Shown: positions 2,545 to 39,398 of the stretch, piece after piece | Layout: each line of letters begins with the position of its first letter | Position numbering within the stretch: position 1 is the stretch's first letter | NCBI GenBank assembly: GCA_016178595.1 | Contig: JACOSY010000013.1 | Coordinates: forward strand, 62,001-126,000 | Origin: Ignavibacteria bacterium | Lineage (GTDB): Bacteria > Bacteroidota > Ignavibacteria > UBA10030 > SZUA-254 | Direction of reading: 5' to 3' | DNA length: 64,000 nt | Program-made: the position numbers and the translations under genes | Notes under the pieces: generated by a model | Database searches by the model: none | Seen by the model: only the letters and a program-made list of their open reading frames with translations | What the model was told of the DNA's origin: nothing

Positions 2545-2572
2545 GAAGGCGACATCGTGTGACGTCGCCTTC
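2545..2572. repeat. REP-like 28-bp palindrome, copy 1 (intergenic)
   Basis: Nine-base arms GAAGGCGAC and GTCGCCTTC flank a 10-base centre. It sits between the convergent aminopeptidase and DsrE-like genes and could also act as a transcription-ending hairpin. It has the same length and arms as the copy inside the dehydrogenase gene at 37637-37664 and is related to the copies at 8094, 38105 and 38395. Confidence 0.8.
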
Positions 2573-8093: not shown

Positions 8094-8121
8094 GAAGGCG
8101 AGGTGACGTCACGTTACCTAC
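8094..8121. repeat. REP-like 28-bp palindrome, degenerate copy
   Basis: Shares the 28-base length and the centre GTGACGTCAC with the perfect copy at 38105-38132; the right arm has drifted (GTTACCTAC instead of GTCGCCTTC). Confidence 0.6.
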
Positions 8122-36718: not shown

Positions 36719-37768
36719 ATGAAAGCAATTCGTTTCCACGAATTCGGCGATGCACACATCCTTCGCTACGAAGAAGCGCCGACACCGACAATAGGACCGA
36801 ATGACGTCCTCCTTCAATTGAAAGCCGCTGCACTCAATCACCTCGACGTCTTTGCCCGCAGTGGCGCTCGCGAGAAGAACATTCCTTTACCGCACATTCC
36901 CGGCTCCGACGGATCTGGGGTTATTGCCGAAGTCGGAAGTACCGTTGAGCTCGTCAGGCGCGGGGACAAGGTTCTCATCTCTCCGGGAATTTCTTGCGGC
37001 AATTGTCCGGAATGCTTAAGCAAACGAGATAATCTTTGCCGCAGTTATCGCGTCCTCGGAACGAAGGAAGATGGAACGTATGCCGAGTATGTCCGGCTTC
37101 CGTCCGCGAACGTTGTTCCGATTCCGGAAGGTTTGACTTTTGAAGAAGCCGCGGCTATTCCATTGGTATTTCTGACTGCGTGGCACATGCTTGTAACATT
37201 GGCAAAAGTGCATCCGGGAGAAATCGTCCTCGTTCATGGCGCCGGGAGCGGCGTCGGATCCGCCGGAATTCAGATCGCAAAGCTCTTCGGAGCGCGCGTA
37301 ATCACGACCGCGGGATCGAACGATAAACTTGTGAAAGCGAAAGCGCTTGGCGCTGATGAACTGATCAATTATCAGGAGAACGATTTTGCTGAGGAAGTAA
37401 AACGAATCACAGGCAAGCGTGGCGTCGATATCGTATTCGAACACATTGGCGGCGAAGTCTTCCGGAAGAGTCTCACCGTTGTTGCAAAGGGAGGAAGACT
37501 CGTCACGTGCGGCTCAACGACGGATTTCAACACGAACATCGACCTCCGGTACATTTATTCCCGCCATCAAACCATTTATGGTTCGTGGATGGGAAGCAAG
37601 AACGAGATGTTCGACGTGATGAAGTTCTTTTCTGCTGAAGGCGACGTCGCGCGACGGCGCCTTCGTCCGGTGATTGACAGTGTATTTCCTCTCGCCCAGG
37701 CAGCCAATGCACAACTGTGGATGGAGGAGCGGAGGAATTTTGGGAAGATCGTGTTGAAGATTTCTTGA
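36719..37768 (+). CDS. Zinc-type MDR alcohol dehydrogenase/quinone oxidoreductase
   Basis: 349 residues, medium-chain reductase. LPHIPGSDGSGVIAEVG is the catalytic-domain core, CGNCPECLSKRDNLC gives four Cys for the structural zinc, and VHGAGSGVGSAGIQIAK the NAD(P) Rossmann turn. Start at ATG 36719. A 28-bp REP palindrome lies inside the gene (37637-37664) and encodes residues 307-316 (EGDVARRRLR), near the C-terminus. The last codons contain one copy of a 21-bp repeat found again after the RAYT gene. Substrate unknown. Confidence 0.9.
   Translation: MKAIRFHEFGDAHILRYEEAPTPTIGPNDVLLQLKAAALNHLDVFARSGAREKNIPLPHIPGSDGSGVIAEVGSTVELVRRGDKVLISPGISCGNCPECLSKRDNLCRSYRVLGTKEDGTYAEYVRLPSANVVPIPEGLTFEEAAAIPLVFLTAWHMLVTLAKVHPGEIVLVHGAGSGVGSAGIQIAKLFGARVITTAGSNDKLVKAKALGADELINYQENDFAEEVKRITGKRGVDIVFEHIGGEVFRKSLTVVAKGGRLVTCGSTTDFNTNIDLRYIYSRHQTIYGSWMGSKNEMFDVMKFFSAEGDVARRRLRPVIDSVFPLAQAANAQLWMEERRNFGKIVLKIS
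37637..37664. repeat. REP-like 28-bp palindrome inside the dehydrogenase gene
   Basis: Arms GAAGGCGACGTCG and CGACGGCGCCTTC (one mismatch). Read in frame as E-G-D-V-A-R-R-R-L-R, the same frame as the copy inside the RAYT gene. Same outer arms as the intergenic copy at 2545-2572. Confidence 0.85.
37738..37758 (+). repeat. 21-bp direct repeat, left copy
   Basis: Lies at the 3' end of the dehydrogenase gene, starting TTTTGGGAAGATCG. The identical 21 bases occur at 38427-38447, just before the threonine dehydratase start. The two copies bracket the RAYT gene and its palindromes. Confidence 0.9.
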
Positions 37769-37789
37769 CGAGAATTATGGGGAGGCAAA

Positions 37790-38410
37790 ATGAGGCACAA
37801 AGATTCTCAGCGTCGCATGTCCACCGACGGGCGCGCAGTGTTTGTCACAACGGCAACCTACGAGCGATACCCATATTTCCATAACGAGATTCTTTCCGAG
37901 TTATTCGTCCATGATCTTTACTTCACGGCAGAGATCAAGGAAGTCGAGCTGTATGGATACGCCGTGCTGCCCGATCATGCGCATTTATTGTTTCGGCCGA
38001 TACACGAGGTTTGTTATTCGGAAGTTGTCCGCTCGCTCAAGACGAATTTTTCCCGGAATGCAAATGATATCGTCATGGATCGTCTTCATCGCCCTGCCAT
38101 CACCGCAGGCGACGTGACGTCACGTCGCCTGCAGAGATACGAGAAATATTTGCGCGAGACCCTGCCGCGGCTTCGTCAAAAATTGATTGAAACCTACGGT
38201 GAAATTCATTGCATTCCACGTTTCCGCTGGCAAAAATCTTTCCGCGACCACATTATCCGCAGTGAAGAGGATTTTCATAAACATTTGAATTATATTTATG
38301 GCAACGCCGTCAAGCATGAATTGGCCAGCGAACCCGAAGATTGGAAATGGATGTGGGTGATGGGGATGGATGAACCCACATCACGCATCAATGGAGGCGA
38401 TGTCACGTGA
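37790..38410 (+). CDS. REP-associated tyrosine transposase (RAYT, Y1 HUH family)
   Basis: 206 residues. The HUH motif is LPDHAHLLF (HxH near 65) and the likely catalytic Tyr lies in HLNYIYGNAVKHELA near 170, as in IS200/IS605-related RAYT enzymes, which cut single-stranded REP hairpins. A perfect 28-bp palindrome at 38105-38132 is read through as AGDVTSRRLQ (residues 106-115), in the variable middle of the family, and a second palindrome spans the stop codon (G-G-D-V-T-stop). GGGGAGG gives the ribosome site. The reading frame seems intact. Likely source of the REP family in this genome. Confidence 0.9.
   Translation: MRHKDSQRRMSTDGRAVFVTTATYERYPYFHNEILSELFVHDLYFTAEIKEVELYGYAVLPDHAHLLFRPIHEVCYSEVVRSLKTNFSRNANDIVMDRLHRPAITAGDVTSRRLQRYEKYLRETLPRLRQKLIETYGEIHCIPRFRWQKSFRDHIIRSEEDFHKHLNYIYGNAVKHELASEPEDWKWMWVMGMDEPTSRINGGDVT
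38105..38132. repeat. Perfect 28-bp REP palindrome inside the RAYT gene
   Basis: Both halves are exact reverse complements (left half GCAGGCGACGTGAC). Coded in frame within the transposase. Confidence 0.95.
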
Positions 38411-38418
38411 CATCGCCT
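38395..38418. repeat. Perfect 24-bp REP palindrome across the RAYT stop codon
   Basis: Left half AGGCGATGTCAC, right half its exact complement. The RAYT TGA (38408-38410) lies within the right half, so this copy may act both as substrate hairpin and as a structure at the transcript end. Confidence 0.95.
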
Positions 38419-38426
38419 GGAAAAAT

Positions 38427-38447
38427 TTTTGGGAAGATCGTGTTGAA
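38427..38447 (+). repeat. 21-bp direct repeat, right copy
   Basis: Identical to 37738-37758; with it brackets a 689-base module. It forms the leader of the threonine dehydratase gene and ends four bases before its ATG. Confidence 0.9.
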
Positions 38448-38450
38448 AAT

Positions 38451-39398
38451 ATGATCTCTTTCTCCGACATCGAACACGCTTACTCCGTTCTCAAGCCCCT
38501 CGTTCATAAGACGCCGCTGCTGTCATCTCGGACGTTCAATAGCATAACAGGCAACGAGGTCTACTTCAAGGCGGAAAATTTCCAGCGGATCGGTGCGTTC
38601 AAGTTCCGCGGTGCTTACAATAAAATTGCGTCGCTCACCGACGCGCAACGACGCGCAGGAGTCGTCGCACATTCTTCCGGCAATCATGCGCAGGGCGTAG
38701 CGCTTGCGGCAAAACTCTTCGGTATCAAGGCAACGATTGTCATGCCGCATGATTCGGTTTCAAGCAAAGTCGAGGGAACGAAAGGCTACGGCGCCGAGGT
38801 CGTCTTTTGCGGCACCACGATCGATGAACGTGAGAAGAAAACGGACGAGCTTATCCGGCAGTATGGCTACACGCTCATCCACCCCTACAACGATCCGCAG
38901 CTGATCGCGGGGCAGGGAACTGTTGTACTCGAAATTTTTCACGACACGAAAGACCTCGATTACCTTTTCGTTCCCATCGGCGGCGGCGGACTCGTCTCGG
39001 GCTGCGCCGTTGCGGCAAAAAATCTTTTCCCAAACGTTCGCGTGATCGGCGTTGAAACGGAAGGAGCCAATGATGCATACCAATCCTTCCGCGAGAAACG
39101 CATCGTCAAACTGACGAAGGTGAATACGATTGCCGACGGCATGAGAACCTCCTCTGTCGGCCCTCTCAACTTCGAGATCATCATGAAGTATGTCGACGAT
39201 GTTATCACGATTTCCGACGATGACATTCTTCCCATGATGAAATTCTTTTTCGAACGGATGAAGATTGTGGTCGAGCCGACCGGAGCCGTTGCTCCGGCGG
39301 CGGTGATGAAAAATTCTCTTCGCATGCAGGGAAAGAAGATCTGTGCAGTTATTAGCGGAGGAAACATCGATCCGGCACTGTTACGACAGATTGCTTGA
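38451..39398 (+). CDS. Threonine/serine dehydratase, short form (PLP)
   Basis: 315 residues, lacking the C-terminal ACT control domain of biosynthetic IlvA, so like catabolic TdcB or serine racemase. PLP Lys in FKFRGAYNKI, phosphate-binding loop GGGGLVSG, and SSGNHAQGVALAAKL. Converts threonine to 2-oxobutyrate and ammonia. Start at 38451; upstream is the duplicated dehydrogenase tail and no clear ribosome site, so expression signals may have been changed by the insertion event. Confidence 0.92.
   Translation: MISFSDIEHAYSVLKPLVHKTPLLSSRTFNSITGNEVYFKAENFQRIGAFKFRGAYNKIASLTDAQRRAGVVAHSSGNHAQGVALAAKLFGIKATIVMPHDSVSSKVEGTKGYGAEVVFCGTTIDEREKKTDELIRQYGYTLIHPYNDPQLIAGQGTVVLEIFHDTKDLDYLFVPIGGGGLVSGCAVAAKNLFPNVRVIGVETEGANDAYQSFREKRIVKLTKVNTIADGMRTSSVGPLNFEIIMKYVDDVITISDDDILPMMKFFFERMKIVVEPTGAVAPAAVMKNSLRMQGKKICAVISGGNIDPALLRQIA

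Follow-up and report, generated by a model that had tools for sequence, protein, structure and literature searches.

Why genes for REP-associated tyrosine transposases (RAYTs) persist, and how each enzyme stays matched to its own family of repetitive extragenic palindromes (REPs), are questions touched by a locus at which a RAYT gene carries such a palindrome within its own open reading frame (ORF). The locus lies in a stretch of 64,000 nucleotides from an Ignavibacteria bacterium (assembly GCA_016178595.1, contig JACOSY010000013.1, positions 62,001 to 126,000), here called the window, in which all positions are counted. The RAYT (TnpA_REP) gene at 37790..38410 on the + strand encodes 206 amino acids (aa), and a perfect 28-bp REP palindrome, GCAGGCGACGTGACGTCACGTCGCCTGC, lies inside it at 38105..38132 and is translated as AGDVTSRRLQ (aa 106-115). 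An earlier sequence-only reading had taken the locus as a case of REPs which enter genes and are kept as peptides, in the manner of Rickettsia palindromic elements. Its statement that the RAYT carries a REP of its own in frame was confirmed, and this proved to be a conserved trait of the clade to which the enzyme belongs. We consider it likely that this RAYT houses a resident copy of its cognate REP, of which the hairpin is kept while the letters turn over with the REP family of the host. In what follows, G000 is the window's own genome, other G-numbers are the other genomes compared, and L-numbers are loci.

The protein can be assigned to the RAYTs by its REP-associated tyrosine transposase profile, by a core with an HUH motif and a single tyrosine, and by its fold. 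It scores 99.3 bits against NF047646 (REP_Tyr_transpos; cut-off 80), a profile matched by all 24 aligned RAYT members, and is also matched by Y1_Tnp. Its motifs are D62-H63-A-H65 (HUH), W147-Q148...D153-H154..R157, and Tyr168; the GTAG-reading residues W, Q, D/E, H, and R (residue roles according to PMC6006769) are conserved in the clade. For the AlphaFold2 (AF2) model (mean predicted local distance difference test score, pLDDT, 87), the best PDB match by fold is 4er8 (E 1.1e-7, template modelling score (TM-score) 0.69 by target). In this model, aa 106-115 form the loop of lowest confidence, situated between helix alphaC (residues 76-95) and an extra helix preceding beta4 (residues 147-155), and the loop is predicted to be disordered. 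A profile alignment to 4er8 places the entire insert between alphaC and W94.

Relatives of this RAYT were found via an alignment of three RAYTs; a search of the genome contigs with the single protein detected none. Judged from the sequences, the palindrome is at the same site in 22 members of one clade, has a signal at the nucleotide level, and resembles the REPs of its own genome. The 22 RAYTs, including that of the window, carry it in the alphaC-beta4 loop and come from Ignavibacteriae, Bacteroidetes, Cloacimonadota, Patescibacteria-type phyla, and Caenarcanales. In a quick tree they form a single clade with one label change and a Shimodaira-Hasegawa-like approximate likelihood ratio test (SH-aLRT) value of 93. 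When synonymous codons were shuffled, no more than 2 of 1000 shuffles reached the observed palindrome in 20 of the 22 members, and none of 1000 did so for the window RAYT. L067 (26/1000) and L074 (23/1000) are weaker, and in the sister group L077/L078/L080 the same shuffles revealed no palindrome beyond chance. A near-perfect hairpin is present in 20 of the 22 members despite protein identities of just 30-45%; that of the window RAYT, folded as DNA, has an energy of -16.4 kcal/mol (z -6.1). The letters of the palindromes diverge widely among members with pairing kept, a covariation count that is descriptive only since the rows were chosen as palindromes, and the clade's palindromes retain a G-x-A-G/A foot. 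Among the best 8 candidates per genome in 395 genomes of the own phylum, the clade was found only in G000, and a scan of viral contigs detected no member.

The in-gene copies follow the REPs dispersed in their own genomes. Comparing the in-gene palindrome with dispersed copies in ten genomes, with copies at the RAYT locus left out where known, we found fewer mismatches between the in-gene copy and REPs from the same genome than between it and REPs from other genomes (mean 4.06 versus 7.38; 0 of 20000 permutations). Because the letters differ between members and resemble the dispersed REPs of the own genome, it is the hairpin that is conserved. We propose that the alphaC-beta4 loop received its REP in a single event in the clade's ancestor, and that the RAYT gene then spread across phyla. 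The site would have held a near-perfect 28-bp hairpin, its letters changing in step with the REP family of the respective host, and the encoded peptide would be tolerated as a passenger in the predicted disordered loop. The RAYT may act on the hairpin within its gene when that DNA is single-stranded, and this contact, be it for copying, conversion, or control of the enzyme's own gene, may be the reason why the hairpin persists.

Several points weigh against this account. The covariation count used copies picked as palindromes, and the support for the clade (93 in a quick tree) is moderate. Tracking of own-genome REPs is not universal, since the in-gene copy of G476 is 8 mismatches away from the nearest dispersed REP. 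A search with up to 3 mismatches finds the core of the in-gene copy nowhere else in G043 and G076, so that there is no dispersed family to track in these two. Moreover, template switching during replication, or conversion, can keep palindromes perfect without selection, and mutations are known to arise by template switching in E. coli (PMC7202029). This leads to a reading without function, in which the loop tolerates any in-frame insert and the hairpin is kept perfect by conversion from dispersed REPs, by re-insertion, or by template-switch correction of quasi-palindromes. In line with such selfish renewal, the in-gene REP of L144 (G091) has grown into a tandem array, with about five copies of CNDISRDLA/P inside the RAYT, and L071 and L076 contain multiple in-gene copies; the predicted disorder of the loop and the similarity of in-gene to dispersed copies fit as well. 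G043 and G076 argue against it, as they offer no other core copy as a source for renewal. So does the window RAYT itself. The centre of its internal copy is GTGACGTCAC and that of the commonest genomic form is GTCACGTGAC; a single base pair, with both partners swapped (positions 10 and 15), sets them apart. The swap removes the in-frame TGA of the commonest form, and conversion by that form would bring in a stop. We give renewal without function close to an even chance.

The same paired swap, which preserves the hairpin while removing the TGA, would be expected of a functional cis element. Here the hairpin itself would be selected, either because the RAYT binds its own gene or mRNA and so limits expression or copy number, or because the link between enzyme and target is kept. 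The near-perfect hairpins at low protein identity and their retention in G043 and G076 are consistent with this idea; the weak signals of L067 and L074 and the absence of one beyond chance in the sister group are not, and self-correction could give the same pattern. Selection of this kind seems possible to us, though we would not bet on it. Still further goes the proposal that the hairpin is an obligate cis element of the clade, with enzyme specificity, self-control, and REP family evolving as a unit and being transferred horizontally together, which we regard as doubtful. What makes the matching of RAYT and REP directly testable is that the target lies inside the gene of the enzyme and can be recoded synonymously with the protein unchanged.

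Retention of the peptide is a further explanation to be weighed. The window locus contains three palindromes: the in-ORF copy, a 28-bp palindrome with one mismatched pair inside the ORF of the upstream dehydrogenase (37637..37664), and a perfect 24-bp palindrome at the 3' end of the RAYT gene (38395..38418). The sequence-only reading had listed all three at these places and had noted that they share a codon phase and that none breaks its gene, and in all this it was right. Translation gives a common x-G-D-V phase, with E-G-D-V-A in the dehydrogenase followed by A-G-D-V-T and G-G-D-V-T in the RAYT, and the centre of the third palindrome, with its TGA in phase (GGC GAT GTC ACG TGA), supplies the RAYT stop codon. 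The single mismatch in the dehydrogenase copy (CGT -> CGG, Arg) is synonymous. The same phase is used in 20 of the 22 clade members, counted from the 28-bp frame of each palindrome. This agreement could mean that the G-D-V peptide serves a purpose or is particularly well tolerated, an idea put forward for Rickettsia palindromic elements. The two exceptions, L062 and L144, are sister taxa that read the palindrome in another phase as an unrelated peptide, which makes the peptide look like a passenger. In addition, the centre residues vary freely among members, the loop is modelled with low confidence, and synonymous shuffling, which leaves the peptide intact, loses the palindrome and so places the signal in the nucleotides. 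We therefore find retention at the level of the peptide very improbable. That the RAYTs share a phase is best understood if the site goes back to a single ancestral one.

The distribution of the REP family across the own genome (3.1 Mb in 61 contigs, counted by pattern searches) points in the same direction. Here the RAYT is accompanied by a cognate family of 22 palindromes, three of them at its locus. A mechanical ORF test classed 18 of the 22 as intergenic, three of which overlap only short ORFs (94-141 aa), and the remaining four touch real genes, namely the dehydrogenase, the RAYT (twice), and an Eco57I-type restriction-modification methylase. The methylase copy (L191; G000:C15:219679-219702), the only in-gene REP copy of this genome away from the RAYT locus, is in frame and read in a different phase as RRRFESSP. 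Insertion in frame into many unrelated genes was not seen in the own genome, where the dehydrogenase and this one methylase are the only cases outside the RAYT. With 18 of 22 copies between genes and the methylase in another phase, no general habit of gene entry as G-D-V peptides is apparent. Counting copies between and inside genes thus failed to bear out the Rickettsia-like part of the earlier view. The window itself contains 5 motif matches at up to 3 mismatches, compared to 0.00 expected from shuffles; they include an intergenic copy at 2547..2570 and a diverged one at 8096..8119. None of the ten other RAYT/Y1 genes in the genome has a palindrome in its ORF beyond chance, as 251-990 of 1000 synonymous shuffles reach the observed one. 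At L049, L052, L053, L054, and L059, which belong to these RAYT/Y1 genes, the palindromes are of different families and lie next to or around the ORF, never within it. Two different REP palindromes stand side by side at L188 (G000:C12:64333-64393), 13 bp apart and doublet-like. The methylase also contains other repeat-like inserts (HPLLLGEGRGEV and similar).

The palindrome in the dehydrogenase raises the question of how the RAYT arrived. This zinc-binding dehydrogenase (36719..37768, + strand; ADH_N and ADH_zinc_N) carries its palindrome 126 bp upstream of the RAYT start. As the sequence-only reading had anticipated, orthologues are without the G-D-V peptide. The comparison stops short of a clean 28-bp insertion, because the loop varies in length among orthologues and is here, on balance, only 2-6 codons longer than in the nearest relatives. 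Upstream palindromes, roughly 40-110 bp before the matched region, also occur in L060, L071, L072, L144, and L147, and since other clade members have a palindrome before the gene, the simplest reading of the dehydrogenase copy, and a probable one, makes it the REP on the upstream side of this REPtron. Its centre, GTCGCGCGAC, matches the intergenic copies L003 and L007 and not the RAYT copies. This would allow for an independent REP insertion unrelated to the arrival of the RAYT, as would its position in a loop of differing length; its closeness to the RAYT start and the upstream palindromes of the five relatives speak against it, and we rate an independent insertion as conceivable but on the improbable side.

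According to our preferred account, the palindromes at the stop codon and in the dehydrogenase would be the flanking REPs of one REPtron, a cassette that would have landed at the 3' end of the dehydrogenase and left a duplication of about 30 bp. What the sequence offers here is direct repeats at the RAYT and an empty site in a relative. On both sides of the RAYT, about 30 bp of the dehydrogenase 3' end recur as an imperfect direct repeat (24 bp at 96%, then extended). The first copy (37733..37761, + strand) forms the present 3' end of the dehydrogenase. The second (38419..38450, + strand), a relic of the old 3' end, keeps the former reading frame as GKIFGKIVLKI-stop and runs into the ATG of the downstream gene, which encodes a threonine dehydratase-like pyridoxal phosphate-dependent enzyme (38451..39398, + strand) and adjoins the dehydrogenase in relatives. 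L017 has no RAYT at this junction, and its dehydrogenase stop overlaps with the beginning of the following gene. Target duplications are not known from IS200/IS605-type enzymes, and one of about 30 bp is unexpected for a Y1 enzyme.

In-gene palindromes are not restricted to the alphaC-beta4 loop. The use of other RAYTs as clean negatives was dropped, as several from other clades hold in-gene palindromes at other loops. In L111, L112, L115, L116, L128, L129, L133, and L135, the palindrome directly follows the HuH strand, as in subclass 2.4 of the published classification (PMC6006769). The Clostridia RAYTs L089, L095, L096, L118, L119, L125, L138, and L139 have in-frame GGGCG...CGCCC palindromes in an N-terminal loop, which represents a third in-gene site. 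By this comparison, at least two RAYT branches acquired in-gene REPs, and did so at different loops, meaning that the feature is not peculiar to one subclass. In a RAYT from G016 (L148), short palindromes encode in-frame repeat units (VTRTSVREDVTRTLVRED) that follow the HuH motif.

Palindromes in frame within genes have been described for other systems. Rickettsia palindromic elements likewise lie within ORFs and are read as peptides, whereas the copies described here are mostly intergenic and have the likely mobilising enzyme beside them. GTAG/CGTC REPs were found in frame within many other, unrelated genes such as recB and uvrA, with loops and linkers proposed as tolerant sites (Di Nocera et al., 2013; PMC3733652). 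The RAYT genes of that study are flanked by REPs and not described as carrying one, in contrast to the window RAYT. Corneloup et al. (2021; PMC8266576) studied recognition, and the passages of that work considered here mention no in-gene REP. The closest structure, 4er8, is that of E. coli TnpA_REP bound to a REP hairpin. It has the same fold as the window RAYT, and its residues W94/Q95/E100/H101/R104 correspond to W147/Q148/D153/H154/R157. However, the E. coli protein lacks an insert between alphaC and beta4, and E. coli REPs are bulged, whereas the REPs here are perfect palindromes.

In-gene REPs in RAYTs are not new as such, and we abandoned an initial view of them as novel: in-frame REPs inside tnpA_REP genes were reported for subclass 2.4 and called unique to it, with the insert between beta3 and alphaC (Quentin et al., 2018; PMC6006769). 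The clade shares with subclass 2.4 a REP that sits in frame within tnpA_REP, between the HuH and Y motifs, as well as 'double foot' REPs and the WQ motif (PMC6006769). It differs in the position of the insert (alphaC-beta4), in its foot, which is mostly GAAG or GCAG, and in its motifs: subclass 2.4 has NH[IFV]H and YIxNNP, the window RAYT DHAH and YIYGNA, and most of the clade DHxH, mostly without NP. Subclass 2.6 resembles the clade in its alphaC-beta4 insert, the WQ motif, and its occurrence in the Bacteroidetes group (PMC6006769), but has the motifs NH[LIV]H and YIH[QN]NP, which are not those of the present clade. Its flanking structures are atypical and without GT[AG]G, and in-gene REPs have not been reported for it (PMC6006769). 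In the quick tree, which includes no named 2.4 or 2.6 reference proteins, the alphaC-beta4 clade (93) and the group with in-gene REPs between beta3 and alphaC (98) are on separate branches. A feature reported once before, for subclass 2.4, is now extended to a separate RAYT branch, a different loop, and many phyla.
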